Source: Bogoriella caseilytica (GTDB taxonomy: Bacteria; Actinomycetota; Actinomycetes; Actinomycetales; Actinomycetaceae). Taken from it: 64,000 nucleotides of DNA. Shown here one piece after another: positions 854 through 27,775 of this stretch. The stretch lies in NCBI RefSeq assembly GCF_003752405.1, contig NZ_RKHK01000001.1:496001-560000 (forward strand), read 5' to 3'. The notes under the pieces were generated by a model. The model saw only the letters and a list, made by a program, of their open reading frames with translations, did not search any database and had not been told where the DNA came from. A program made the translations under genes and the position numbers. Position 1 is the first letter of the stretch. The number at the start of each line of letters is the position of its first letter.

Positions 854-2425
854 TCAACGCACGGTGACGCGCACCGCGAGGTCCTCGGCGGCATCGGGCA
901 CAGGCGTGGCCACGGTGATCAGCTCCCCGTCGGCCGCGTCGGCCCGCAGCACGGCGGCAGCCGAGACGGCGCCGTCGGTCTGCACGAGCAGCGCGTGCCC
1001 CTCGGCGTCGATCACCCGGGTGGACCACGGGTCGATCTCGACCGTCTCCGGTGCTCCCATGCTGCCGTCACCCTCGATGGCGGCGAGTGTGACGTCGGCG
1101 GCCTCCGCGCCGTTGTTGCTCATCAGGACTGTCGCGTCCGCGAGTGCGGGCAGCGGGATGAGTGCCGCGGCCGCGGGAGAGACAGCCGGCGCCCAGGCGC
1201 GGTCGACCGGCGCGGTGGAGGGGTCGAGTGGTCCGGGCGTACCGGTGCGTGCGAGCTGGACCGCGCCGGTGAGTGGTTCATCGGCCACCACGTGCACGGC
1301 ATACGCGCCCGGGTCGACGACGGCCAGGCTCAGTTCCAGCACCGCGCCGGGGTCGATGGTGACGTTCTCGGCGCCGGGGAGATCGACCGGGCCGCTCTCG
1401 CCAAGCAGCTGGACGGTGGCGCGCGCTTCACTCTCGCCGGGATTGACCAGGCGAAGCCGCGCCGGCGTCTCGGGCGCGAGCTCGTCTGCCTCGCCCTCCT
1501 CTGCCTCCTCCTCCTCAGCCTCGTCCGGGTCGGCGCCGTCCTCCGCGGCGGAGGTCAGCAGCACCCCGGGGATGAGGAAGTCCGGTGCGGGCGGGGCAGC
1601 GGGCCCGAAGAGGTCGGCACCGGCCGGCACGATGCCGTCGAGGCGCAGTTCCTGGGCGTAGGCACTCACCTGCCCGCCCGGGCTCTCCACGCGCACAGCC
1701 AGATCTGGATCGCTGGAGATGGCCTCGAGCAGCAGGTGCTCAGATTCGCCGGGGGCCAGGGAGATCTCGTCGAGCTGCGGGGCCGGGACCTCTCCGAGTG
1801 ACGACCACAGCGTCACGGAGGCAGTGGCCGAGGTGGTGCCGGTGTTGGTCAGCGTCAGCCTCGTCGAGGAACCCACGTCTCCGGAGCCGCCCACCAGGTA
1901 GGTGGCCGAGGCCGGCCGCTGGCACGAGGTGCCGGCCAGGCCGCGTAGGTCACCGGCCTCGGTCATGGTGACCGAGGCACCGGCTGCGAGTGCCGCGGCG
2001 CCGCCGACCGCCTGGGCCTCCAGGATGCCGCCGGACTCAGGATCGTCGATCTGCGCAGCGCGGAGATCGCCCATGACCGTCAGGCCCTCAGGTGTGTCGC
2101 CCTCGAGCTGGTACTCGGCCTCCGCCGCGTCGCTCGATCCGTTGCCGTCGCGCGCCAGCGTGAACACCTCGGTGCGGGAGGCGGGCACGAGCAGGTCGGG
2201 ATCGGCGTCGGTCTCCGGGTCGATGGCGATCTGCTCGCCGGTGGTCAGCTCCAGCGGCCCGGCGCACACCAGCGACAGGGGCCCGGCGGAGACCGCGGTG
2301 GCCTCACCGGTGACCGTGGCCGGTGCTGCGGGCGGGTACTGCTCCGCGAGGATGATCGCACCCACGGCGGCAGCAAGCAGGACGACGGCGGAGACGACCC
2401 GGGCCAGCACTCTCAGGATTCTCAC
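854..2425 (-). CDS. DUF5719 family secreted/anchored protein
   Basis: A 523-residue protein with one hydrophobic N-terminal segment (about residues 8-27), consistent with a signal anchor, followed by a long extracellular region of repeated beta-rich, Ala/Gly/Thr-rich modules. Two cysteines (about residues 54 and 168) could form a disulfide. A strongly acidic insert lies near residues 296-320. The match to DUF5719 rests on its place after the large GT2 membrane protein and on its architecture. Function is unknown; partnership with the GT2 protein in envelope assembly is an inference from constant adjacency. The GTG start overlaps the upstream GT2 stop by 4 bp (GTGA), indicating translational coupling in a whiB-GT2-DUF5719 operon. 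Confidence 0.8.
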   Translation of the reverse strand: MRILRVLARVVSAVVLLAAAVGAIILAEQYPPAAPATVTGEATAVSAGPLSLVCAGPLELTTGEQIAIDPETDADPDLLVPASRTEVFTLARDGNGSSDAAEAEYQLEGDTPEGLTVMGDLRAAQIDDPESGGILEAQAVGGAAALAAGASVTMTEAGDLRGLAGTSCQRPASATYLVGGSGDVGSSTRLTLTNTGTTSATASVTLWSSLGEVPAPQLDEISLAPGESEHLLLEAISSDPDLAVRVESPGGQVSAYAQELRLDGIVPAGADLFGPAAPPAPDFLIPGVLLTSAAEDGADPDEAEEEEAEEGEADELAPETPARLRLVNPGESEARATVQLLGESGPVDLPGAENVTIDPGAVLELSLAVVDPGAYAVHVVADEPLTGAVQLARTGTPGPLDPSTAPVDRAWAPAVSPAAAALIPLPALADATVLMSNNGAEAADVTLAAIEGDGSMGAPETVEIDPWSTRVIDAEGHALLVQTDGAVSAAAVLRADAADGELITVATPVPDAAEDLAVRVTVR

Positions 2426-7462: not shown

Positions 7463-8767
7463 GTGGCAAGACACGCAGGAAAGAGGCCTGCCCTCTCCGT
7501 ACCGGATACCGGCAGTGCACCCGGTAGCCGCCATGCCCAGCGCAAGCCCTTCGGGCACGTGCGGCAGCAGGTGGCCACGGCGCTGCTCGGCATCGTGGTC
7601 TTCCTCGCGTCCTTCACCGGCATCGCCGTCGCCAGACTCCAGGGCAACATCGGCGTGCACGACATCAACGAGCTGCTCGGCGACGACCGGCCCACGCGCC
7701 ACGGCTCCGACGATGACGGGATCGAAGCACCCGGCGATCCGGCGAGCGGCGAAGCGATCAACCTGCTCGTCTTCGGCATCGACGCCCGGGACGAGCCGGG
7801 CATGACCGCCGAGGGCGGCACCCGCACGGACGTCACCATGCTGATGCACATCAGCGCCGATCGGGATCGCGTCGAACTCATCTCGATCCCGCGGGACACC
7901 TTGGTGGACATCCCGGACTGCCCTCTCCCGGATGGCCGCCGGACCGCGCCGCAGGCCCAGTCCATGTTCAACTCGGCCTTCTTCTTCGGGAGCCAGACCG
8001 GAGACCTGGGCGGAGGGGCCGCCTGCACGGTTCTCACCGTGGAGGCCTGGACCGGCATCCGCATCGACGACTTCGTGCTGGTGGATTTCAACGGGTTCCA
8101 GGCCATGGTCGACTCCCTCGGCGGGGTCCCCATGTACATTCCTGAACCCATCTCGGACAGCCGCGCGCATCTCGAGATCGAGGAAACCGGCTGTCAGCTC
8201 CTGGACGGTCATGACGCCCTCGGGTATGCCCGCGCCCGGTACAACATCTTCGGATCCGACGGCTCGGACATCGCGCGCATCGGGCGGCAACAGGAACTGG
8301 TCGCCGCGATCGCGCGCGAGGCACTCACCACGCGCATCCTCACCGACCCAGCCGCGATGTTCCAGTTCCTCGATGCCACCACGCGCACGCTCGAGACCGG
8401 TTCGTGGATCGGTTCCCTGACCACCATGGCCGGCCTGGGGCTCTCGCTGGATGTGGACCCGGCAGACATCCGCTTCGCGACCATGCCGAACATGCCGTGG
8501 CCACAGAACCCCAACCGCGTCGTGGCCACGGCCGAAGCGGAGGAGATGTGGGCCGCGGTCCGGGAGGATCGCCCGATCGATGCCGACATCGACGGCACCG
8601 GTGACGAAGCGCCAGAACCGGAGCCAGAGGACACTGACGTTCCGGAGGACACCGACGTTCCGGACGACGAGGTACCAGAGGTGGACGAGACCCCCACTCA
8701 GCCCGAGGCCGAGGAGCCGGACGTCGACGACGGCGCGCCGCGGGTGTGCACTCGCGCGGACGTGTGA
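7463..8767 (+). CDS. LCP (LytR-CpsA-Psr) family glycopolymer ligase 1
   Basis: A 434-residue membrane-anchored protein. A basic N-terminus precedes one transmembrane helix (about 37-57). The LCP domain covers about 90-300, with INLLVFGIDARDE, GGTRTDVTMLMHI, the ELISIPRDTLVDIP motif carrying the key Arg and Asp, a VLVDFNGFQAMVDSLGGV block and GYARARYN. LCP enzymes move glycopolymers from polyprenyl-diphosphate carriers to peptidoglycan or protein on the outer membrane face. Residues 365-430 are an acidic Glu/Asp/Pro-rich tail with short repeats (EDTDVPEDTDVP), unusual for the family and probably disordered. A second LCP gene follows after 10 bp, and the galactan exporter is next, so this enzyme plausibly attaches that polymer. 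Confidence 0.9.
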   Translation: MARHAGKRPALSVPDTGSAPGSRHAQRKPFGHVRQQVATALLGIVVFLASFTGIAVARLQGNIGVHDINELLGDDRPTRHGSDDDGIEAPGDPASGEAINLLVFGIDARDEPGMTAEGGTRTDVTMLMHISADRDRVELISIPRDTLVDIPDCPLPDGRRTAPQAQSMFNSAFFFGSQTGDLGGGAACTVLTVEAWTGIRIDDFVLVDFNGFQAMVDSLGGVPMYIPEPISDSRAHLEIEETGCQLLDGHDALGYARARYNIFGSDGSDIARIGRQQELVAAIAREALTTRILTDPAAMFQFLDATTRTLETGSWIGSLTTMAGLGLSLDVDPADIRFATMPNMPWPQNPNRVVATAEAEEMWAAVREDRPIDADIDGTGDEAPEPEPEDTDVPEDTDVPDDEVPEVDETPTQPEAEEPDVDDGAPRVCTRADV

Positions 8768-8777
8768 GGCTGCCAGC

Positions 8778-10073
8778 GTGAGCGACCAGAATCCGCCGAG
8801 CTTCCGCCCTTCGGGAACCCCGGAGGGGCGGCCTGACCCGCGAACCGCACGCCCTGTGGGGAAGCGACAGGACTCCCCGCGCACTCGGCCGATGGCTGCG
8901 GGCCAGGGCAGCACGGAGGCCGATCGGGCGGCGGCGAGCCGCGAGGCACGCCGCTCCATCCGGGAGCGGGGCACTGCCGGAGGAGCGCAGACGCCATCCC
9001 ACCGGCCGGCCCCTGCCCGCTCCACCGCCGGGAGTCAGCCGCCGCCCAGTTACGCACCTGCCTCAGCCGCCGGCTCACGCCCCTCGCCCCCGCCGCCACC
9101 ACGAGGCCCCCATACGCCCGCCGAGCCCGCGCGCCCGCGGCGCCGCCGCCGAGGGCGGGTGCTGGCCCTCATTCTCGTGCTGCTCCTGATCGTGGTGCTG
9201 GCGTGGCCGGTGGGTCTGGTGATCTACGCCAACGGGCGCATGTCGCAGGTCTCAGCGCTCTCGGGCGCAGCCGACACCGAGGGAACGACCTACCTGATCG
9301 CCGGCTCCGACGAACGCGCCGAGGACTCCGAGGAACAGGTCGAGGGGGCCCGCACCGACACGGTGATGGTGCTCCACCGGGTCGCGGGCACCACCACCTT
9401 GCTCTCCCTGCCGCGTGACACCTACGTGGAGATTCCCGGAGTGGGCTTCAACAAGCTCAACGCCGCGTACACCTTCGGTGGACCGGCCACGCTCACCGCC
9501 ACCGTGGAGAACCTCACCGGACTGACGGTCGACCATTACGTCGAGATCGGCATGGACGGCGTGGAGCAACTGGTTGACGCCGTGGGCGGCGTGGAGCTGT
9601 GCCTGGACTACGACGTCGACGACTGGCGCTCCGGGCTCGACTGGCAGGCCGGCTGCCACCACTCCGACGGCGCCACCGCGCTGGCCTTCTCACGGATGCG
9701 CTATTCCGACCCGCTGGGCGACATTGGCCGGGCCGAGCGGCAACGGCAGGTGGTCGGCGCCGTGCTGCGCGAGGCGACTCAGCCCGCCACGCTGGTGAAC
9801 CCGCTCGCGCACGTGCGCTTGGTCAATGCCGGCACCGACGTGGTCACCACCGACGAGGGCAGTGGCGTGGTCGCGCTCGGGCAGATGGCCCTGGCGCTGC
9901 GTGCGGCCACCGGGGAGAACGGGCAGATGGGCACTCCGCCGATCGCCAGCTACGACTACCGCCCCGGCGGTATCGGCTCCGCCGTTCAGCTCGACCCGGA
10001 GCGCACGCCCGGGTTCTTCGAACGGCTCCGCACCGGGGACCTCACGGCCGACGACCTTGCGCCCAGCTTCTGA
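8778..10073 (+). CDS. LCP family glycopolymer ligase 2
   Basis: 431 residues from a GTG 10 bp after the first LCP gene; the frame is open further upstream but that part overlaps the first LCP gene and is not protein-like. Residues 1-120 are Pro/Arg/Ser-rich and cytoplasmic, a transmembrane helix spans about 127-150, and the LCP domain follows: TYLIAGSDERAED, EGARTDTVMVLHR, LLSLPRDTYVEIPG, GFNKLNAAYTFGGP, VENLTGLTVDHYVEI, VDAVGGVELCLDY, and FSRMRYSDPLGDIGRAERQRQ with the conserved Arg cluster. Two cysteines in the loop after VEL may pair. It probably shares glycopolymer attachment with the preceding gene. A GC-rich hairpin after the stop marks the end of the transcript. Confidence 0.9.
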   Translation: MSDQNPPSFRPSGTPEGRPDPRTARPVGKRQDSPRTRPMAAGQGSTEADRAAASREARRSIRERGTAGGAQTPSHRPAPARSTAGSQPPPSYAPASAAGSRPSPPPPPRGPHTPAEPARPRRRRRGRVLALILVLLLIVVLAWPVGLVIYANGRMSQVSALSGAADTEGTTYLIAGSDERAEDSEEQVEGARTDTVMVLHRVAGTTTLLSLPRDTYVEIPGVGFNKLNAAYTFGGPATLTATVENLTGLTVDHYVEIGMDGVEQLVDAVGGVELCLDYDVDDWRSGLDWQAGCHHSDGATALAFSRMRYSDPLGDIGRAERQRQVVGAVLREATQPATLVNPLAHVRLVNAGTDVVTTDEGSGVVALGQMALALRAATGENGQMGTPPIASYDYRPGGIGSAVQLDPERTPGFFERLRTGDLTADDLAPSF

Positions 10074-10374
10074 CCGTCACCGCGCCCAGCCGCGGAGCGA
10101 GACGTGCCGGCCGGCGCCTCCGGCCGGCGGGAAGGGGAGGGGCCAAGTCACCGCCGGCCGGAGCAGCGCGCCCGCATAGACGCGCACTCCATAACATCAC
10201 GGTTTGGTAACGAACAACACTCGAGCGGGACGATCAGCCCGCCCCGGTGAGAGAAACCACCAGGACATGGGGCACGTGAGCGGGCTGGAACGTCCTAGAC
10301 TCTGGCAGCAGCTACGAGCGCACGGCACGCGTACTCCGCGCCCACCCGAGCGCCTACCCGACCTCAGGAGCTTC
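10074..10374. other. Intergenic region upstream of the ABC exporter
   Basis: This 301-bp stretch holds a terminator hairpin near its left end and, to the right, a candidate -10 box TAGACT at 10296-10301 for the exporter operon, which would leave a leader of about 70 nt. The right part is open in the exporter frame back to 10204, but those codons are not conserved-looking. No RNA gene is recognised. Confidence 0.5.
10106..10128 (+). terminator. Terminator hairpin after the LCP pair
   Basis: GCCGGCCGG and CCGGCCGGC form a perfect 9-bp stem with loop CGCCT, 32 bp after the second LCP stop. No T-tract follows. Confidence 0.6.
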
Positions 10375-11295
10375 ATGGGAGCCACACCCACATCGGGCGC
10401 GGACACGCACTCACGCGAGCTCGAAGCGCTGGCCCGCGAACACGGCCTGAACCCTATCGGCGTCCGCCCTCGCCTCTGGCACTACATCAGCGAGATGTGG
10501 CGGTTCCGCCACTTCGTCTACTACATGGCGACTGCGCGGGCCTACGCCGAGAATCAGCGCAACTACCTGGGCCAGATGTGGGCCGTGCTCACCCCCACCC
10601 TCACGGCCGCCGTGTACGTTGCGGTCTTCGGCCTGGTCCTGGGCGCTGACCGTGGCCTCGAGAACGGTGTTGCCTTCATCGTGGTGGGAGTCTTTCTCTT
10701 CCGCTTCTTCCAGACCTCAGTGACTTCCGGGGCTCATGTGCTGGCCGAACGTCTCACGCTGGTGCGATCGCTACGGTTTCCGCGCGCCGCTCTACCCATC
10801 TCTGCCGTCATCACCGAGCTGGCCAATCTGGTGCCGGCCCTGGTGGCAATGTGCCTCCTGGTGCCCTTGACCGGCCTGATACCAGGCTTCGATCCCGTTC
10901 CCATCACCTGGTGGTGGCTCCTACTTCCGGTCGCCGTGCTGATCTTCGCCCTCATCAACACCGGGGTAGCCCTCATCGCGGCGCGGATCGTCGCAGCGAC
11001 GCCTGACTTCATGCAGATCATCCACTTCCTGATGCGCTTCGCCATCTACGGTTCCGGTGTGCTCTTCCCCGTCACACACTATGTGGAGGATTGGGACCTG
11101 CCCTGGCTCGTGGCGATCCTGGAGTACCAACCCATCGCGTTGGGACTGGATCTGAGTCGGCAGATCATTCTCGATGAGCCCACGATCCCCATCGATCCAC
11201 TGAAGTGGCTGATCGCCCTCGGCTTCGGCATCGCCCTCGTGGTGGTCGGCTTCATCTACTTCTGGGGCGCGGAGGAACGCTATGGCCGAGACTGA
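10375..11295 (+). CDS. ABC-2 type polysaccharide export permease (Wzm/TagG/Rv3783 type)
   Basis: 306 residues starting at an ATG with AGGAG 4-5 nt upstream. About 50 cytoplasmic residues are followed by an amphipathic helix segment (YISEMWRFRHFVYYMATARAYAENQRN) and six predicted transmembrane helices with the ABC-2 layout (WAVLTPTLTAAVYVAVFGLVLG; FLFRFFQTSVTSG; LANLVPALVAMCLLV; LLLPVAVLIFALINTGVALIAA; FLMRFAIYGSGVLFPV; LIALGFGIALVVVGFIYFW). The family exports polyprenyl-linked glycans such as teichoic acid or mycobacterial galactan. The 14-bp overlap with the ATPase gene shows a paired exporter. Nearby Glf and GlfT genes suggest galactan as cargo; that is an inference. Confidence 0.9.
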   Translation: MGATPTSGADTHSRELEALAREHGLNPIGVRPRLWHYISEMWRFRHFVYYMATARAYAENQRNYLGQMWAVLTPTLTAAVYVAVFGLVLGADRGLENGVAFIVVGVFLFRFFQTSVTSGAHVLAERLTLVRSLRFPRAALPISAVITELANLVPALVAMCLLVPLTGLIPGFDPVPITWWWLLLPVAVLIFALINTGVALIAARIVAATPDFMQIIHFLMRFAIYGSGVLFPVTHYVEDWDLPWLVAILEYQPIALGLDLSRQIILDEPTIPIDPLKWLIALGFGIALVVVGFIYFWGAEERYGRD

Positions 11296-12217
11296 GATCG
11301 ACTTCGAGTACGACGCCGAGGACTTCGCCGGCGACACCACCACCTCAGCTCGCATCGGGGCACCGTCGGTCGTGGTCGACAACGTGCACGTCAAGTACCG
11401 CGTCTTCGGCTCCAAGAAGACCAGCCTTGTCGACGGCGAGGCCGGCCCGTCGCGGCTGCGCCGGCTCCGGAACCGCATGAAGGGTCACGTGGGTGCCGTC
11501 TCGGAGGTGCACGCCGTCAAGGGCGTCTCCTTCGTGGCTCACCGTGGTGAGTCGATCGGCATCGTCGGAACCAACGGATCGGGGAAGTCCACGCTGCTGC
11601 GCGCCGCCGCCGGTTTGGTACCGCTGGCCGAAGGGCGGATCTGGACGGAGGCGAAGCCTTCACTGCTGGGCGTCAACGCCGCCCTGGTGCCGGCGCTCAC
11701 CGGTGAACGCAACATCATGATCGGTGGCCTCGCTCTCGGGTTGAGCCCCCAGGAGGTCCGGGAGCGGACTGCGGAGATCATCGACTTCGCCGACCTTGGC
11801 GACTTCGTGCACCTTCCGATGAAGACCTACTCCTCGGGCATGGCAGCGCGTCTTCGCTTTGCCATCTCCTCCGTGGCGCGGCCCGACATCCTCATGATCG
11901 ACGAGGCACTCTCGACTGGTGACGCCGAGTTCCGGCAGAAATCCAAGGCGCGCATCGACGAGATCCGCGAGCATGCCGGAACGATCTTCCTGGTGACGCA
12001 CTCCTCGGAAGCGATCATCCGCATGTGCTCGCGGGTCATCTGGATCAAGCAGGGGCAGGTCGAGGCCGACGGTGACCCGGACGAGGTGACGCAGGAGTAC
12101 CGGAAGTACATCCGGACGGTCCGCGCCGACCAGAAGGCCGCTCGCGAGGCACAGCTGCAGGCCGAACTCGCGGCGGTCGAACGTTCGGAGAAGGAACGCC
12201 GAAAGGGTCAGGCCTGA
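11282..12217 (+). CDS. ABC exporter ATP-binding protein (Wzt/TagH/Rv3781 type)
   Basis: 311 residues. Walker A is GTNGSGKST (about 98-106), the signature is YSSGMAARLRF, Walker B is PDILMIDEALS, and the switch His is in IFLVTHSSEAI. The first 35 residues are acidic and variable. The form is typical of polysaccharide exporters that load the glycan-lipid (VGTNGSGKSTLLRAAAGL; LGVNAALVPALTGERN). The C-terminal tail is a charged helix without the carbohydrate-binding domain found in O-antigen Wzt proteins, so substrate choice probably does not rely on terminal sugar recognition there. It is translated from within the permease gene end, with a 14-bp overlap. No clear terminator follows. Confidence 0.92.
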   Translation: MAETEIDFEYDAEDFAGDTTTSARIGAPSVVVDNVHVKYRVFGSKKTSLVDGEAGPSRLRRLRNRMKGHVGAVSEVHAVKGVSFVAHRGESIGIVGTNGSGKSTLLRAAAGLVPLAEGRIWTEAKPSLLGVNAALVPALTGERNIMIGGLALGLSPQEVRERTAEIIDFADLGDFVHLPMKTYSSGMAARLRFAISSVARPDILMIDEALSTGDAEFRQKSKARIDEIREHAGTIFLVTHSSEAIIRMCSRVIWIKQGQVEADGDPDEVTQEYRKYIRTVRADQKAAREAQLQAELAAVERSEKERRKGQA

Positions 12218-12588: not shown

Positions 12589-13827
12589 TCAGTTCCGCGC
12601 CCCTGAGGCGACCTGCTCGATGATGTCCACCTGCTTCATAGCGTTCGCACGAACACCGACCAGTGCGGTCGAAACCTGGATGGCGATCTCCTCCTTGCGA
12701 TCAAGGAGTTCGGCGACCTTGCTGCGATACGTGTCCTCGGTGAGTTCTTTGTGCCCAACGGCGAAGTCCTCCTGCCCGAACATCTCAAGGACCTCGCGGT
12801 ACTTATGGCTCCACCCGATCACGAAGGTCGGAACACCCATCGAGAGCGAGGAGACCATCGCATGGAAGCGCGAGGCCACGAAGACCTCACAGCGACCGAT
12901 GAGGTGGCGCAGTGCCTGCGAGGAGAGCTCGTCGTCAATGAAGAGCACCTTGTCCTTCGACGCGAGCCCGGCGTAGATCTCGCGAGTCAAGGGCAGATCA
13001 TTGTTGTGCGTCTTGGTCGTCTTCGCGCGAGCCGAGTGCGCCACCAAGAAGACCTTCTTGCCCAGCACTTCAGTGAGGTGATCGATCTGCGCACGCACCT
13101 GGGCCACATAGTCCTCACCTCGCGAGGCAGCGCTCTTCTGCAGCACTGCCGATGGCGAGAAGCCCACCACGTCATCGGAGTCGAAGAATCCAGGTGCCAC
13201 ACGATCTGCAGCGGCCTGGCCCTCAGCGACGTCCGCATCGGTCAGCTCGAGGGTGAACGCGAGGTCTGCACCAGCATGGATGTTGGTCAGACCGAACTCG
13301 ACCAGATGTTGATGGGTGATGGCGCCGCGGGAGATGATCGCGGCGACCTTCGGGAGCAGCGCACGGGCCGCAAGCTTGTTCTGCCGCTCGGTGAACGGCC
13401 CCATAGCCTGGGCCACCTTGACCACGGGCGTTTTGACGAAGAGCGCGGGCAAGATCGAGGCCATGTTGTAGATGAGAAACTTGCCGCGCCCGTCGACGAA
13501 GGTGATCCCCCCTTCGTCCAGGAGAACGTCGGCCGATGCGAGAGCCCCGACCTCCGGGACCGCCCGCTCGAGCGCCCGCCGAAGCGGCGGCAGAATCCGC
13601 CACGCAAGTGCCGTTCCGTTGATCAGCACGCCCAGGCGCATCGGAGAGGCATCCAGCACGTTCAGGTTCGCGAACGGGTTCTGTTCCGCGTCTGAGCGCG
13701 GATACATGCTCAGCAGCACGAAGCGGGGATCCTCCCCACGCCGCGAGAGGTGCTGGACCGAGGACTCGAGCATGGCCGAGGCACCCTTGTTCCCGGCGAA
13801 GGCTGAACCGATGATGGCGATCTTCAT
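12589..13827 (-). CDS. Polysaccharide pyruvyl transferase family protein
   Basis: 412 residues of the PS_pyruv_trans family. It begins MKIAIIGSAFAGNKGASAML (the family N-terminal strand and Gly-rich loop), has DVLLDEGGITFVDGRG near 105, VVKVAQAMGPF near 140, ISRGAITHQHL near 170, and the C-terminal sugar-nucleotide like site RCEVFVASRFHAMVSSLSMGVPTFVIGWSHKYREVL, where the R-F-H-A motif is typical. These enzymes put a pyruvate ketal from PEP on a sugar of a surface glycan. It overlaps the flippase-like gene upstream by 4 bp, so the two are co-translated. The acceptor is unknown; a galactofuranosyl or galactosyl residue is plausible from the cluster. Confidence 0.87.
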   Translation of the reverse strand: MKIAIIGSAFAGNKGASAMLESSVQHLSRRGEDPRFVLLSMYPRSDAEQNPFANLNVLDASPMRLGVLINGTALAWRILPPLRRALERAVPEVGALASADVLLDEGGITFVDGRGKFLIYNMASILPALFVKTPVVKVAQAMGPFTERQNKLAARALLPKVAAIISRGAITHQHLVEFGLTNIHAGADLAFTLELTDADVAEGQAAADRVAPGFFDSDDVVGFSPSAVLQKSAASRGEDYVAQVRAQIDHLTEVLGKKVFLVAHSARAKTTKTHNNDLPLTREIYAGLASKDKVLFIDDELSSQALRHLIGRCEVFVASRFHAMVSSLSMGVPTFVIGWSHKYREVLEMFGQEDFAVGHKELTEDTYRSKVAELLDRKEEIAIQVSTALVGVRANAMKQVDIIEQVASGARN

Positions 13828-14800: not shown

Positions 14801-15853
14801 CTAGTCGGCTGACACAGAATGGGCGACAGCTCGCTCCGCTGGCGCCACGCGTTCGTGGATGCGGTCCGGCACTACCGTCGACGCAGCTTCCATGGTCTCG
14901 CGACGTGCGTGCGGGTCGGCGTATTGCAGCGCCTTCACACGTTCGAGCGACTCCTCGAGCAGCACCCGATTGGTACGTAGGAGGTCGGCGATGATCAGCA
15001 GGGCGTAGCTCAGGAGCGCTCCCACCAGCAGCGCGGTGCCAAAGATCAAGGACTGGACGTGGCCTCCGGAGTCGCCCATCAGCCACAGCACCAGGAAGCG
15101 GACGAAGGGCACCAGGCCGGCGATCAACATGATCGTGCCGAGTGTGCCGAGCATGACGTGTGGCTTGAACATCAGGTACGAACGCACGATCGCCGAGCCC
15201 GACTTGAACATGTGTTGCCAGATGTTCTTGAACAGCCGAGACTCGCGAGTCTTGGGGTTGGTAGTAATCGGCAACGATTCGATCCGCAACCGCTTGTTGC
15301 CGGCCTGGATGATCGTCTCCATGCAGTACGAAAACTGAGTGACGACGTTGAGACGGACGAGCGCCTGCTTCGAGTAAGCGCGGAAGCCCGAGGCGGCATC
15401 CGGTAAAGCGGTCCCGGCAGCCCGGTTGACCACGTCGGAGCCCACGCGCTGCATCAGCTTCTTGAACGGTGAGAAGTGACTGATCTTGGCGGTTTGGCGG
15501 TCTGCGATCACAATGTCTGCCTCACCCCGAACGAGAGGCTGAACCAGGTCGGAGATGCGCTCCTGCGGGTACTGGTTATCGCCGTCGGTGTTGACCACGA
15601 TGTCGGCACCCTGCGCCAGGGCGTAGTCCACCCCATCGCGGAATGACCGGGCAAGTCCCATGTTGCGGGCATGGCGCACGAAATGCTTGACGCCGTGTGC
15701 TTTGGCTACCTCGACCGTGCGGTCGGTGGAGCCATCATCGACAATCAGGATCTCGACGGAATCGATTCCGGGAATCTCCCGCGGGATCGTCGAGAGCACG
15801 GCGGGGAGGGTCTCCTCCTCATTGAGACAGGGGACCTGGACAAACAGCTTCAC
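14801..15853 (-). CDS. Glycosyltransferase family 2, polyprenyl-phosphate sugar synthase type
   Basis: 350 residues. The GT2 domain begins at once (VKLFVQVPCLNEEETLPAVL), has VDDGSTDRT near 50, the NTDGDNQYPQE donor/metal motif near 105, and GFRAYSKQAL near 175, as in DPM1/ArnC-like enzymes that load a sugar onto polyprenyl phosphate. Two to three C-terminal helices (VMLGTLGTIMLIAGLVPFVRFLVLW; LIFGTALLVGALLSYALLIIAD) anchor it. The GTG at 15853 is chosen because AAAGGA stands 5 nt upstream; the frame is open 20 codons further. A TAGACT box (15932-15937) may be the -10 of a GT2-flippase-pyruvyltransferase operon. Confidence 0.87.
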   Translation of the reverse strand: MKLFVQVPCLNEEETLPAVLSTIPREIPGIDSVEILIVDDGSTDRTVEVAKAHGVKHFVRHARNMGLARSFRDGVDYALAQGADIVVNTDGDNQYPQERISDLVQPLVRGEADIVIADRQTAKISHFSPFKKLMQRVGSDVVNRAAGTALPDAASGFRAYSKQALVRLNVVTQFSYCMETIIQAGNKRLRIESLPITTNPKTRESRLFKNIWQHMFKSGSAIVRSYLMFKPHVMLGTLGTIMLIAGLVPFVRFLVLWLMGDSGGHVQSLIFGTALLVGALLSYALLIIADLLRTNRVLLEESLERVKALQYADPHARRETMEAASTVVPDRIHERVAPAERAVAHSVSAD

Positions 15854-16129
15854 GTCAATCCTTTGGGTGCGGCTAGGTGAGTCGCGCGATCTGACTGCGG
15901 GAGAGCCGGTCACGGCTCGGCAGGTAGATCCAGTCTAGACGCCGAGTTGCCGGGCCTGATCGGCCTGAGAGAGTGACGATCGACAAACCTTCAGCTCGCA
16001 CCTGGACGAGAGGGAGTCCAGTGCTTGATCGCACTCGAGCATCCCAGTGATGGGCGACAAGGACTCACTGCTTTGCGATGAAGTTTCTGGGCAACTCCGC
16101 GCGGGGAGCGGGGCGGCGTCGCGATCAAA

Positions 16130-16430: not shown

Positions 16431-19010
16431 TCAGCTCTTGCCGTGATGGATCAGCACGTGGTCCACGCTGGACCTCTTCGAGCGCGGCACCAGCACCTTC
16501 TTCTTGTAGTGCCCCACCGCGACGAAAGAAATGAGCACCTCACTGTCAGAGAGTCCGATGATCTCCCGGATCGCCTTCTCACGCGCAAGCCCCATGGCGG
16601 TGTTCAGCGGGCAGGAGCCCAGTCCCACGTGGGTCAGGCCAAGAAGGAGCCCCATCATGAACAATCCGCCGTCCACGAACGGCTGGTTGCGCTCCTCCGG
16701 GAAGAGCATCGCGTCCAGGTCAGCCGTCACGAGCAGAAGGCGTGGCGGCATGGGATAGCCGCTGAATCCTCCCTGGATGTCCACCAGCTTCTTGATGGTC
16801 TCCGGGTCACTGAACTGGTGGACGCGCCCGGTCTGGCGGTTGCACACCGATGGCGACTGCATTCCGATCTGCACGGCTCGGGCGATGTCCTCGTCGCGCA
16901 CCGGCTTCTTGGTGAACTCACGGACGCTGCGCCGGCCGTACATGATGTCGATGAAGTCGTTCTTGCCGGCCCGTCGCGGAACTATCTCGCGCTCCTTGGC
17001 TGCTGCCAGCACGCCACCCTCGATCCGCGGCGCCTTGCTGATCAACTTCTGAGCGTCCCGGTTGAAGTTGTCCCAGAACTCAGAAACATCGTGCTTGAGC
17101 TTGGCGTGGCGGTCGAAGTACGTGCGGGCCACGGCGGCCGAGCTCTGCAGGAACGGGTCCTCCAGGCTGTGCCCGGCCTCCAACCAGGCGTTCATCTCCC
17201 TGGCGAGCCCGGGCATGGCAATCTTGCCGAAGCCAGCACGGAAGTCCTCACGGCTCAGGCCCTTCTCGAGGGCGTGGGCGTGAAAGATGATCCTCGCGCG
17301 GGAACCGCCGAGGCTTTCTGGCACGCGCCGCTTCTCTTGTGCTGCAAGCAGCCTCTCCAGGTCGCTGTCCACCACGAGCTTGGCACGCTCAGCGAAGGAC
17401 TTCGGCTTCGGCTTCGGCTTCGGCTTGGCGGCGGGCGGCGCGGGCACGAACTCGAGTGGTACTTCCTCGATGGAGATGCTTCGCACCTCGGCACCCGCAT
17501 CCGGGCCGGTGAAGTGCACGGCACCGAGCATGAACTGGGAGTAGCCGTCTTCCGTCATGCGGAAAGGAACGACGTCCACCCGAGGCACCGCCTCGTAGGT
17601 TGCGATGTCGACCGCACCCACCACTCGGAACTTGCCGCTCTGCGGGTTGCGCAGATGGACGTTGACCGACGAGGTCTGCGTCTTCGGGGTCCAGTCGATG
17701 CGGAGCCGGTAGGCGCCACCTTTGCGAACGGGTTTCGGCAGGTCACACCAGACGAGATTGCCGCGAGCTGCGCCATCAGTGCCAACCCTGAGGCGGGCCC
17801 CGCTTCGGCGTCGCTTGATCTGCCAGGCCTCGTTATTCGCCGTGAACTCGGGCTTGACGACCTCGGACTGCTCCACAGGATGCAAAGAGGCTGACTGTTT
17901 CTTGCTGGGGTCCAGTGCTTCCGCCAGCCATTTCAGTGACGTGTTGCGTCCAGTCTCCATGTACTCTTCGGCGCCGCTCAGGTCAATCTTGAGGGTGACC
18001 TGGGGGTTGGCGTTGATCGTCTCAGCGGTGTCGGTCTCATAGACCCGCCGGCGCTCCCCCAACCCGAAGGCGTCCATGAGGTTTTGGAAACGATCGGCTC
18101 CGCGCTTGGTGTTGTAGATCGAGGAGAAGGGCTTGCCGAAGATGGCTGCGAAACAGGACCCGTGGTAGCTGTCAGTGATGACATACGTCGAGTCACGGTA
18201 GGTGCGCAGGAAGTTCTCCGGGCCGTCCTCGCCCATCACCTCCGCACGAGGGTCAACCTGCCAGAGTTCCTGAGCCGGCTCGCGACCTCCGTCAGGGTTG
18301 GGGATGACGCGGATCTTGGCCAGCCCGAGCTTGTCTGCGATCCGCCGGGCGACGGCAACCTTCTCGCGGTTCGGGTCGAGGAAGAAGACCGTGAGGTACT
18401 CGCCGTCGGTGCTCACCGTGCCTTTGTCCGCAAGGTCGCTGTAGTGCTCGCGGGGCAGCAGGAAGACCGGGTCGACCACCAGGGAGGCGCCCACGCCGAA
18501 GACGTCTCGCGCGGTGTCGATGGCGTACTTCTCCCGAACGGAGATCGCCTGGAAGTCCTGGAGGTTCGCGGCGTGCTTGGCGACGAACGCGGGATCGAAC
18601 TTCTCGGTGCCGCGGTTGCCGAACGATGTGGCATAAGCGACGCGGTTGTTCTCCGGGCGCACGAAATGCAAAAAGAGATCGTCATTCACTCGCCCGATCA
18701 GCGGGTTCCACAGCTGGTCGCTTCCCACGACGAAGGTCCGGGCCTTGTCGTTAAGATACGGGAGCTCGGAGTAGTGGAACTGGTCGGTGAAGTCGTAGCC
18801 GATCCGCCGCGCGAATTCGAGGGAAAGGATGTCGTCAGGCCAGTCGACGCGATAGCCGTTATAACCCAATGGCTCGTGAACCATCAGGGTCTTGTGGCCA
18901 AGCCCGACGATCGCCCGGTTCAGTCCGTAGTACGTGAGAATAGATCCGTAGTTCTTCCCGTACCACCATCCGAGAATAGCAACGTCATACGCCTTCTTCG
19001 GACTATTCAT
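16431..19010 (-). CDS. Polysaccharide pyruvyltransferase - beta-sandwich - nitroreductase fusion protein
   Basis: An unusual three-part protein of about 860 residues. Residues ~8-360 are a polysaccharide pyruvyl transferase domain: DVAILGWWYGKNYGSILTYY at the start, FVVGSDQLWNP near 98, RVAYATSFG near 128, and YVITDSYHGSCFAAIFGKPF near 285. Residues ~390-525 look like a beta-sandwich, possibly carbohydrate-binding. A (PK)n linker lies at ~530-539. Residues ~545-680 are helical, with an HALEKGLSREDFRAGFGK motif, and ~685-860 form a nitroreductase domain with the FMN-site motifs RRSVREF, SPSVCNRQ and VGLGSCPLN. Family knowledge: the first domain ketalises a sugar with pyruvate, the last uses FMN to reduce a small substrate; the combined role is unknown. 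The third-codon ATG at 19010 is chosen for its spacing to GAAGGG; an ATG at 19016 is possible. TAGACT at 19041-19046 may be the -10. Confidence 0.88.
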   Translation of the reverse strand: MNSPKKAYDVAILGWWYGKNYGSILTYYGLNRAIVGLGHKTLMVHEPLGYNGYRVDWPDDILSLEFARRIGYDFTDQFHYSELPYLNDKARTFVVGSDQLWNPLIGRVNDDLFLHFVRPENNRVAYATSFGNRGTEKFDPAFVAKHAANLQDFQAISVREKYAIDTARDVFGVGASLVVDPVFLLPREHYSDLADKGTVSTDGEYLTVFFLDPNREKVAVARRIADKLGLAKIRVIPNPDGGREPAQELWQVDPRAEVMGEDGPENFLRTYRDSTYVITDSYHGSCFAAIFGKPFSSIYNTKRGADRFQNLMDAFGLGERRRVYETDTAETINANPQVTLKIDLSGAEEYMETGRNTSLKWLAEALDPSKKQSASLHPVEQSEVVKPEFTANNEAWQIKRRRSGARLRVGTDGAARGNLVWCDLPKPVRKGGAYRLRIDWTPKTQTSSVNVHLRNPQSGKFRVVGAVDIATYEAVPRVDVVPFRMTEDGYSQFMLGAVHFTGPDAGAEVRSISIEEVPLEFVPAPPAAKPKPKPKPKSFAERAKLVVDSDLERLLAAQEKRRVPESLGGSRARIIFHAHALEKGLSREDFRAGFGKIAMPGLAREMNAWLEAGHSLEDPFLQSSAAVARTYFDRHAKLKHDVSEFWDNFNRDAQKLISKAPRIEGGVLAAAKEREIVPRRAGKNDFIDIMYGRRSVREFTKKPVRDEDIARAVQIGMQSPSVCNRQTGRVHQFSDPETIKKLVDIQGGFSGYPMPPRLLLVTADLDAMLFPEERNQPFVDGGLFMMGLLLGLTHVGLGSCPLNTAMGLAREKAIREIIGLSDSEVLISFVAVGHYKKKVLVPRSKRSSVDHVLIHHGKS

Positions 19011-19040
19011 CAACATTTCCCTTCGTACCGAGGCCAGGCC

Positions 19041-21850: not shown

Positions 21851-24882
<3,032 letters not shown>

Positions 24883-25001: not shown

Positions 25002-26810
25002 TCAGCCGTGAATGGTGGCGCGCCAGCTCTCGGGGTCGGTGAGGTCCCGGGCAGCGGCGCGGTAGCTCTCGGAGAGTTCATCCCACTGCTTGCGCAACTC
25101 GGCCAGCGCGGCACCAGAGCTCTTGAACTGAGCGCGGAAGAACGCCTGGTCACGGCGGTAGACGTTGGCCGAGGTGCGCGCCGAGTCGGTCACCACCACA
25201 GAGTCGTAGCGCGGCATACGCCACCAGGTGGCGTCGCGTCGAACAAGTTCGATCTGGGGCGCCGCATCGGGAGGCGGCGATGCCGAGGCCCAGTGCCTGG
25301 CGACCTGCGCGGCCGTCCAGACTGGCAACTTCCGGCGTGAGGGCGGGAAATCCCACTCGATATCGAAGGTTCGTCGCCCACCCACAGCCGCGGGGATCGC
25401 ATCCGGCTTCGCGTAGAGCTGGTTCTCCACGAAGTCTCCACGCAGGGCACGCAGTCGAGCAAAGATCACCGGAAGGTCCTCGTGCAAGTGCTCCGGGCCG
25501 CGCAGAATGTCTCGGTACGCCAACTCCCGGATGTGCGCAGCGAAGTACTCCATACACAACAGATGCTTGGAGTCGATCCGACCCAGGTGTCCAAGCAGCT
25601 TCCCGGAGTTCTCGTACGGCGAATGCAGCAGCGCCGAGAGAATACGGTTACGGGCGTGGAAGTAGGCCTGCCACTCGCGCGAGTCGTCCTTGTCCGTCCA
25701 GGCCACATGCCATAGTGCCGAGGAGGGCAGGGAGACCGTGGAAATGTTCGCCTGGAGCTTGGCGCGAATCGAGTATTCGGCGTCGTCCCACTTCAGGAAG
25801 GCGGGCAGGGAGAGGCCGATGCGGCGCATCACGTCGGTGGGGATGAGGCACATCCACCAGCCGGTGTAGTGCGCGGTCTCACGGCGGTGGGCCCAGGTGG
25901 TGGCCCGCAGGTTACGGTCGTTGAAGTTATGCCGATGGTGCGCCGGGGGTCCGGGGTTCCACAAGAAGTTCTTCAGATCGATCTTCTCAGCCCAGGCGTG
26001 CACCACCGTGGGGTTGAACATGTCGAGCATGTGCCCACCGACGATCGTGGGTTCCGTGGCGAAACGCCCGAACTGCACCAGGCGGTAGATCGCCTCGGGC
26101 TCGACCCGGACATCGTCGTCGAGCAGTAACGTGAAGTCCGAGACCCCGGCGTCCAGAGTCTCGAGCATCGACCGGGAGAAGCCGCCGGAGCCACCGAGAT
26201 TGGCCTGTTGGATGTAGCTGAACTGCTCGCCCAGCCGCTCCGCGATGGCTTCATAGCCCGGATAATCGGAGACCTTCTTGCTGCCCTGGTCGATGACGTA
26301 GATCCGGTCGATGACCGAGAGTGCTTCCTCGGAGTCCGCGAGGGCGTCCAGGGTGGCCAGGCAGTAGTCCTCCTTGTTCACCGTGGTCATCCCGATCGAG
26401 GCGTGCCCCTGCCTGCGTGGCTCGGATTCGGTGGTCCACTCACCACTGAGGAGCTCGAGGCCGGCCTCGCCTGGGAGCAGGTCGAACCAGAACCAGCCGC
26501 CCTTCTCCCGCCCTGCGAGGGAGAGGGTGGCGGTCAGCTCGCCCTCGCCGTTGACCTCCTCGCGGTGGACGACCTGCGATGCGGAGGTGTGGTCGGAGGC
26601 GAAGACCTCGATGGCGCCACTGCCGCGGGTGCGCACGGTCAGGGTCACCTCGTCGGCGTCAGTGTGGTGACTCCAGTAGCCGGCGGGAAGCGCGTTGAAG
26701 TACGTGCCGTAGGAGATGCGCTCTGGCCCTCCGGAGCGGTCGACGTACAAAGCGGTGGCCTGGTGCTCCTCAGAGACGCCGGAGATGGTGTGAGCCAGCA
26801 CGATGGTCAT
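25002..26810 (-). CDS. glfT2: Galactofuranosyltransferase GlfT2-like
   Basis: 602 residues, close to mycobacterial GlfT2 in length and order. An N-terminal beta-barrel region (1-150) precedes a GT-A domain: HASIGMTTVNKEDYC near 135, IDQGSKKVSDYPGY near 173, NLGGSGGFSRSM near 204, the DDD metal motif at 231-233, WDDAEYS at 341-347 with the catalytic-type Asp, and a conserved His in LWHVAWTDKDDSREW near 368. A helical C-terminal domain follows. In Mycobacterium GlfT2 polymerises alternating beta-1,5/1,6 galactofuranose from UDP-Galf; here the linkage is not known. The ATG at 26810 has AGAAGGA 6 nt upstream and overlaps the GlfT1-like stop by 4 bp, so both transferases are coupled. Confidence 0.93.
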   Translation of the reverse strand: MTIVLAHTISGVSEEHQATALYVDRSGGPERISYGTYFNALPAGYWSHHTDADEVTLTVRTRGSGAIEVFASDHTSASQVVHREEVNGEGELTATLSLAGREKGGWFWFDLLPGEAGLELLSGEWTTESEPRRQGHASIGMTTVNKEDYCLATLDALADSEEALSVIDRIYVIDQGSKKVSDYPGYEAIAERLGEQFSYIQQANLGGSGGFSRSMLETLDAGVSDFTLLLDDDVRVEPEAIYRLVQFGRFATEPTIVGGHMLDMFNPTVVHAWAEKIDLKNFLWNPGPPAHHRHNFNDRNLRATTWAHRRETAHYTGWWMCLIPTDVMRRIGLSLPAFLKWDDAEYSIRAKLQANISTVSLPSSALWHVAWTDKDDSREWQAYFHARNRILSALLHSPYENSGKLLGHLGRIDSKHLLCMEYFAAHIRELAYRDILRGPEHLHEDLPVIFARLRALRGDFVENQLYAKPDAIPAAVGGRRTFDIEWDFPPSRRKLPVWTAAQVARHWASASPPPDAAPQIELVRRDATWWRMPRYDSVVVTDSARTSANVYRRDQAFFRAQFKSSGAALAELRKQWDELSESYRAAARDLTDPESWRATIHG

Positions 26811-27775
26811 GGATGATCCTTCTCGGGTGAGCGGGCGGAGTCGGTGGTCAAGGGTGGCATGGGCGCCCACTCGCGGTCGCGCCAGATCCGGCGGCCGTCA
26901 CGCACTCCGCGCATCAGCACGCCCAGGCCGCGCAGACTCCGCTCGACGACCACCAGCCGGAAGATCTCCTTGGCCAGGGTCAGCACGGTTCCCAGGGCGA
27001 AGCCGGGGCGGTTCAGCTTGCCATGCTCGGCGAAGTACCGGCCGACGTACGCCCGGTTACGCATGACGTGGTACTTCGCCAAGGCGCTGGAGTCGTTGAG
27101 ATGTCGCAGCCCCAGGTTGACCTGCCGCTGGGCACGTTTGCGCTTGAGCACGAAGGCATCCACGTAGGCCACCTCAGTCTGCCGTGAGGCCAGCCAGGCG
27201 TAGATGGCGTCGTCCCAGGAGATGAAGAACCGAGGGTCCGGCAGTCCGATTGATCGCACGATGTCGGTGCGGATGAGCATGCCCTCGAAGGTGCCGGAGT
27301 TGGTGATTGCGTAGCCCTCGTCGCTGAAGGCGCGGCGCGTATATGGCAGCGGCACCCCGAGGAACTGGTTGAACTTCGCTTGCCAGAAGAAGGGGGTGCC
27401 GTCCACGTCGTACCGGCGGCCGTGCAGCACGGCGAAGCGGTCCATCCAGGGCTCGAAGCGGTCCATCGCCTCGGGAAGGATCTCGACGTCGTCGTCCATC
27501 AGCCAGATCCAGTCGGCACCGGCCTCCACCGCGAGCCGGACGCCCTCACTGAACCCCCCGGCGCCACCGGTGTTCGTCTCCATCCGATGATTGACCAGAA
27601 CATCGTCGCCCAGCCGGGCGCGGTAAGACTCGATGATCTGCGCCGTCTCCGGTGCCGAGGCGTTGTCCACCACCACCACCCGGAAGGGCGGTCGATTCAT
27701 CGCAAGCACGCTCTCCAGGAGCTCGTCCAGGAGGCCCGGCCGGTTGTAGGTAACGATGGTGACAGCGAGTCGCAC
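26807..27775 (-). CDS. glfT1: GlfT1-like galactofuranosyltransferase (GT2)
   Basis: 322 residues, a GT2 enzyme from a GTG start. Motifs: VTIVTYNRPGLLDELLESVL (1-25), VVVDNAS near 37, NTGGAGGFSEGVRLA near 68 (donor loop also seen in GlfT1/GlfT2), DWIWLMDDDVEILPEAM with DDD at 94-96, and FFISWDDAIYAWLASR near 190, equivalent to the catalytic acidic pair. Mycobacterial GlfT1 adds the first galactofuranose residues to the lipid-linked primer; the same role is likely because the gene lies just upstream of and overlaps glfT2. The C-terminal 60 residues are basic and may bind the membrane. A different priming sugar cannot be ruled out. Confidence 0.82.
   Translation of the reverse strand: MRLAVTIVTYNRPGLLDELLESVLAMNRPPFRVVVVDNASAPETAQIIESYRARLGDDVLVNHRMETNTGGAGGFSEGVRLAVEAGADWIWLMDDDVEILPEAMDRFEPWMDRFAVLHGRRYDVDGTPFFWQAKFNQFLGVPLPYTRRAFSDEGYAITNSGTFEGMLIRTDIVRSIGLPDPRFFISWDDAIYAWLASRQTEVAYVDAFVLKRKRAQRQVNLGLRHLNDSSALAKYHVMRNRAYVGRYFAEHGKLNRPGFALGTVLTLAKEIFRLVVVERSLRGLGVLMRGVRDGRRIWRDREWAPMPPLTTDSARSPEKDHP

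Follow-up and report, generated by a model that had tools for sequence, protein, structure and literature searches.

A fused pyruvyl transferase and nitroreductase of Bogoriella caseilytica as a candidate lactyl-ether synthase for a surface glycan

Introduction

Many O-antigens and capsules carry 1-carboxyethyl (lactyl) ethers. A well-described way to form such a group is that of the MurA/MurB pair, where reduction by MurB turns an enolpyruvyl ether into a lactyl one. For the lactyl ethers of surface glycans, we found no paper that assigns the enzymes, in a literature search of partial coverage that leaves room for a prior proposal. An antigen of Shigella dysenteriae contains 4-O-[(R)-1-carboxyethyl]-D-glucose (reviewed in PMC10609480), and the Klebsiella K22 capsule bears 4-O-[(S)-1-carboxyethyl]-GlcA, according to the title of a study cited in PMC7246685. 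The Klebsiella K22 and K37 loci contain a polysaccharide pyruvyl transferase (PPT) gene although pyruvylation is absent, and two nitroreductase genes were counted across all Klebsiella cps loci (PMC4616057); K22 and K37 differ through an acetyltransferase mutation. The PPTs WbbZ, Pvg1p, WcaK and CsaB (PF04230) form ketals; the motif of ketal-forming members is NxGD, and the D106A substitution in Pvg1p leaves almost no activity (PMC10629545).

Here we analyzed a 64,000-nucleotide stretch (hereafter the window) of the closed, 3.2-Mb genome of Bogoriella caseilytica, in which a first-pass annotation made from the sequence alone had pointed to a gene joining a PPT to an FMN-dependent nitroreductase (NR). 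A PPT-NR fusion was not described in the literature that we searched, again with partial coverage. Sequence comparisons lead us to propose that this fusion is likely a two-step synthase of lactyl (1-carboxyethyl) ethers on a galactofuranose-containing wall glycan.

Results

The fusion gene is read in a single uninterrupted frame with zero internal stops (Table 1), as previously claimed; it opens at position 19016, and the start given by the first-pass annotation, 19010, is the second in-frame ATG. Pfam searches detected both PS_pyruv_trans (PF04230, residues 22-302, 90.5 bits vs a cut-off of 25.3) and Nitroreductase (PF00881, two stretches within the last 180 residues, 60 bits vs a cut-off of 23.5) in the same protein, from which the MurB domains FAD_binding_4 and MurB_C were absent. 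Against the CsaB model TIGR03609, the protein scored 28.6 bits, far below the equivalog cut-off of 213.1. We compared an AlphaFold model of the full-length protein (mean pLDDT 87.6) with known structures, and found similarity to GT-B-fold UDP-sugar epimerases over residues 9-371 (Z 21) and to FMN nitroreductases over residues 684-860 (3m5k, Z 20.3; 3e10, TM 0.82 by target), in agreement with the earlier assignment of the first and last domains. The middle part, which had been called beta-sandwich-like, was modelled alone with a pLDDT of 93.6 as a beta-sandwich resembling CBM families 29, 22 and 4; its match to CBM29 (Z 11.5, 128 residues, 3.0 A) has an identity of only 6% and is one of fold, not of family membership. 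This domain probably holds the polymer.

Table 1. Positions of the fusion gene, its parts and the neighbouring genes in the window
Feature	Position	Strand	Evidence
Fusion gene, 861 aa: PPT - CBM-like - KP linker - helical extension - nitroreductase	16431..19016	(-)	
PPT domain, GT-B fold, residues 8-378; motifs NYGS (Asp lost), VREKYA, SYHGS	17883..18995	(-)	PF04230, 90.5 bits; fold
CBM-like beta-sandwich, residues 380-532	17421..17879	(-)	Model pLDDT 93.6; CBM29/22/4 matches, Z about 10-11.5
Pro/Lys-repeat linker, about residues 523-541	17394..17450	(-)	Sequence; low pLDDT at 531-534
Helical extension, residues 541-684, EKGLS motif	16965..17396	(-)	Alignments and model
FMN nitroreductase domain, residues 685-860	16437..16964	(-)	PF00881, 60 bits; 3m5k, Z 20.3; FMN motifs
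UDP-galactopyranose mutase (Glf)	21851..23194	(-)	PF03275, 276.6 bits
GlfT2-like galactofuranosyltransferase	25002..26870	(-)	Glft2_N and GlfT2_domain3
GT2, partial GlfT1 resemblance below cut-off	26807..27775	(-)	
ABC-2 permease and ABC ATPase, likely glycan exporter	10204..12217	(+)	
LytR-CpsA-Psr (LCP) protein, likely wall ligase	8451..10073	(+)	PF03816, 148 bits
GT2 glycosyltransferase between both PPT genes	14801..15913	(-)	PF00535, 86.9 bits
Second PPT, 412 aa, NKGA motif	12589..13827	(-)	PF04230, 118.6 bits

The C-terminal part displays the FMN-site motifs RRSVR, PSVCNRQ and GLGSC, and residues R695, R699, P722, C725, R727 and Q728 were invariant (100%) in an alignment of 78 NR relatives. 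It is thus a nitroreductase by Pfam and by fold, with FMN-site residues that are conserved, not lost. The domain has the fold and the FMN motifs of PF00881 nitroreductases such as 3m5k, 3e10 and the enone reductase CLA-ER, but differs from them by an additional helical extension with an EKGLS motif, common to the fusion and to stand-alone NRs of the same subfamily, and by belonging to a CNRQ subfamily that is linked with PPT genes and for which we found no experimentally tested member.

The surrounding genes support the galactan context that had been claimed, with a UDP-galactopyranose mutase, a GlfT2-like transferase, an ABC exporter and an LCP protein, and an exported, wall-tied galactofuranan is a fair reading of the locus product; in the literature searched, lactyl ethers are not named in actinobacterial galactofuranan. 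The locus contains one NAD-dependent epimerase; next to the fusion we recognised neither a sugar dehydratase nor a keto-sugar gene. Outside the immediate gene run of the fusion, a DUF5719 protein (window positions 854-2425, 209.7 bits) adjoins a 1217-aa GT2 protein.

Full-length relatives of the fusion, with 54-66% identity, were found in the Actinobacteria Demequina, a Ruaniaceae isolate, Isoptericola, Brachybacterium, Microbacterium, Glutamicibacter and Arthrobacter, and also in Sedimentitalea, Gemmobacter, Loktanella and Tritonibacter, and remoter ones (38-41%) in Pararhizobium and, lacking the middle domain, in Paracoccus. The same domain order therefore recurs in at least seven actinobacterial genera, in Rhodobacterales and in Pararhizobium, and since it is conserved in other genera, the fusion is no assembly fault. 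A Gemmobacter plasmid also bears it, and the patchy taxonomic scatter suggests horizontal transfer.

To follow the redox domain independently of its fusion partner, we scanned a collection of 84,980 genomes for the NR part only, using a query built from eight NRs, a 17-NR alignment being too diverse. The scan yielded 78 loci, and PPT presence at doubtful ones was checked by Pfam. A PPT lay at most 8 kb from the NR in 73 of the 78: it was fused to the NR in 20, within 300 bp in 35 and within 8 kb in 18, and none was seen in the remaining 5. These loci are not independent, 24 of them coming from Bifidobacterium; the others include Enterococcus, Companilactobacillus, Sphaerochaeta, Sphingobacterium, proteobacteria, Saccharibacteria and one archaeon. 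Fusions occur in both domain orders, PPT-CBM-NR as in the window, GT2-NR-PPT in two loci (L111 and L124) and NR-PPT in L120, a frame without the GT2 part, which points to enzymes that would take consecutive steps or form a physical complex. Locus L084 has another larger fusion with an added glycosyltransferase, GT-PPT-NR; this protein and those of L111 and L124 suggest that sugar transfer, enolpyruvylation and reduction may be combined in one chain. The NR subfamily is also present on large plasmids of Rhizobium leguminosarum and relatives, where the query was matched by the NR part only.

A second flavoenzyme accompanies the same PPTs. FrhB is an F420 hydrogenase beta-like flavoenzyme unrelated to NR. 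In a tree of 58 PPT sequences, the window fusion falls in a clade with 100/100 support (clade A), nearly all members of which adjoin either an NR or an FrhB gene, the two partners alternating along the tree. We then used as a control 80 PPT regions of the phylum, drawn blind to partner, in which FrhB was found near 7/10 clade-A PPTs vs 8/62 others (Fisher p 4e-4). FrhB is rare where an NR is present (3/62 loci vs 7/10, p 9e-6), a comparison of differently drawn samples that is indicative only. In E. coli, the cassette order is flippase, FrhB or NR, PPT and glycosyltransferase: the cassette of plasmid p30COLEC-2 (L240) carries NR, the O124/O164 cluster carries FrhB, and plasmid pBDSF8-3_3 (L245) has both redox kinds. 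A DNA search of E. coli with a Hydrogenovibrio NR gave no match. The polysaccharide cassettes of both small plasmids are partly disrupted by insertion sequences.

A third flavin partner was found in Demequina sp. NBRC 110053 (L069:4531-8894), where a PPT-CBM-MurB fusion is followed by a CBM-NR gene. The MurB part has complete FAD_binding_4 and MurB_C domains (PF02873, 78 bits; S. aureus MurB 1hsk, E 4e-60), with GSxF and EV still in place, and the housekeeping murB of this genome is a different gene. This PPT-MurB fusion, though a single case, names the chemistry. Because MurB and NR are neighbours here, the NR of Demequina may do something else. No further MurB was found near a PPT in the 78 NR loci or the 80 control regions, and we rejected MurB as a general PPT partner, Demequina being the only case. 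The CBM-like domain occurs twice in this region.

We then examined the PPT active site. Alignment shows that WcaK retains NRGD while the window fusion has NYGS, with Ser in place of Asp, and this Asp is missing from every clade-A PPT. Of the two other motifs, RxxxS/T and His, the fusion keeps the Arg and the His (VREKYA and SYHGS), with Ala for Ser/Thr. In the partner-blind sample, Asp was lost in 12/17 PPTs with a redox partner vs 11/55 without (p 2e-4), and outside clade A in 5/10 vs 8/52 (p 0.03). As a strict marker of lactyl chemistry, loss of the Asp was rejected, since some PPTs beside FrhB or NR keep it and some partnerless ones lack it.

Clade A provides a link to a known glycan. The Shigella dysenteriae antigen mentioned above is, we assume, that of type 3, shared with E. 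coli O124. In the E. coli O124/O164 O-antigen cluster, FrhB and a clade-A PPT are adjacent, and the window PPT is 28% identical to the O124 PPT over 364 aa (E 6e-36), nearer to it than to the second PPT of its own locus, with which BLAST found no similarity. This link runs through FrhB, not NR. The Klebsiella link rests on an inferred gene assignment, namely that K22 and K37 are the sources of the two nitroreductase genes counted among the cps loci, which would fit. The O124/O164 PPT (L241:8148-9283 in E. coli TUM18780) is annotated in two pieces in 3/5 cluster-bearing E. coli genomes and intact in 2/5, and strains with the two-piece annotation may lack the lactyl group.

Discussion

In the reaction that we propose, the PPT domain would move the enolpyruvyl group of PEP onto one sugar hydroxyl, and the reaction would halt at the enolpyruvyl ether, with no closure to a ketal, because the Asp needed by ketal-forming PPTs is replaced by Ser. 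The FMN domain, reduced by NAD(P)H, would then saturate the enolpyruvyl double bond by hydride transfer and so yield the 1-carboxyethyl ether, a step that parallels the action of MurB after MurA. The proposed logic, a PEP-derived enolpyruvyl ether followed by flavin reduction to a lactyl ether, is that of MurA/MurB, and one relative of the fusion, that of Demequina, has a true MurB domain; however, the transferase of the fusion is a GT-B-fold PPT and not of the MurA fold, its reductase is an FMN nitroreductase, and its acceptor is probably a glycan and not UDP-GlcNAc. With WbbZ, Pvg1p, WcaK and CsaB, the fusion shares family, fold and two residues of the proposed PEP site, Arg and His, but it has Ser for the NxGD Asp, its PPT lies in a different clade from WcaK (100/100 support), and it is remote from the CsaB model. 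Another related system is the E. coli O124/O164 pair, a same-clade PPT beside a flavin redox protein in a cluster whose antigen, on the assumption made above, has a 1-carboxyethyl ether, from which the fusion differs in that the O124/O164 partner is FrhB, encoded with the PPT by two separate genes lacking a CBM-like domain.

Two suggestions of the first-pass annotation, that the FMN domain reduces a pyruvate-derived group and that the product is not a simple ketal, are probably correct given the NR-PPT pairing, the NR/FrhB swap, the PPT-MurB fusion and the O124/O164 cluster. If instead the PPT made an ordinary pyruvate ketal, with the NR modifying another residue or providing some other enzyme of the locus with reduced flavin, this would agree with the ketals made by PF04230 enzymes of known function and with the retained Arg and His, but a bystander NR is disfavoured by repeated fusion and by partner exchange, and the PPT-MurB fusion, the loss of Asp and the O124 cluster, which has a clade-A PPT and no reported ketal, also argue against a plain ketal; we consider it unlikely. 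It is distinctly improbable, in our view, that the pyruvate-derived group is reduced to a product other than a simple 1-carboxyethyl ether, further modified or differently linked: the Demequina PPT, accompanied by both MurB and NR, makes two redox steps conceivable, but the known chemistries at such loci, in the literature searched, are 1-carboxyethyl ethers.

That the NR domain might instead reduce or oxidise the sugar itself, keto or unsaturated, before or after pyruvylation, is very improbable. Enone reductases and C-C oxidases do exist among nitroreductase-fold enzymes, judging by PDB names, but the locus has one NAD-dependent epimerase, and the chemistries tied to such loci in the literature searched are lactyl ethers and not altered sugars. 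Reduction of a keto-sugar group, one of the roles raised by the first-pass annotation, was rejected for want of a recognised dehydratase or keto-sugar gene beside the fusion, and nothing was found in support either of it or of a second such role, the making of a reduced donor by the FMN domain. Finally, a catalytically dead, purely structural NR domain is a general possibility for fused domains with no specific support here, and the conservation of the FMN-site residues, seen in the fusions as well as in each of the 78 relatives, makes it hardly credible.

Beyond this gene, we lean slightly towards a wider version of the lactyl-ether proposal, according to which a PPT branch, having lost the Asp that closes the ketal, turned into an enolpyruvyl transferase feeding three unrelated flavoenzymes, nitroreductase, FrhB and MurB, and forming with them a convergent and general MurA/MurB-like pathway for the lactyl ethers of surface glycans, of which the window gene would be the single-chain form. 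If true, an enzyme pair could be named for a class of surface sugars and predicted from sequence, the presence of "pyruvyl transferase" genes at loci that make a pyruvate-free glycan would be explained, and the fusion would offer a one-protein system for testing lactyl-ether synthesis. The B. caseilytica wall would be predicted to carry lactic-acid ethers instead of pyruvate rings, and the lactic-acid decoration of surface sugars in many bacteria would find an explanation.

The second PPT of the locus had also been taken for a ketal enzyme, which now appears doubtful. It has NKGA in place of NxGD, so that the Asp is missing, and in the 58-PPT tree it groups with an FrhB-associated PPT (support 100/99). 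A search of the window's genome found no FrhB and a single copy of murB, distant from the locus. As this genome is without FrhB and has, besides the fusion, only one further, ordinary nitroreductase, our guess is that the fused NR may serve both PPTs. Relatives of the second PPT lie close to stand-alone nitroreductases in nine further genomes from this order.
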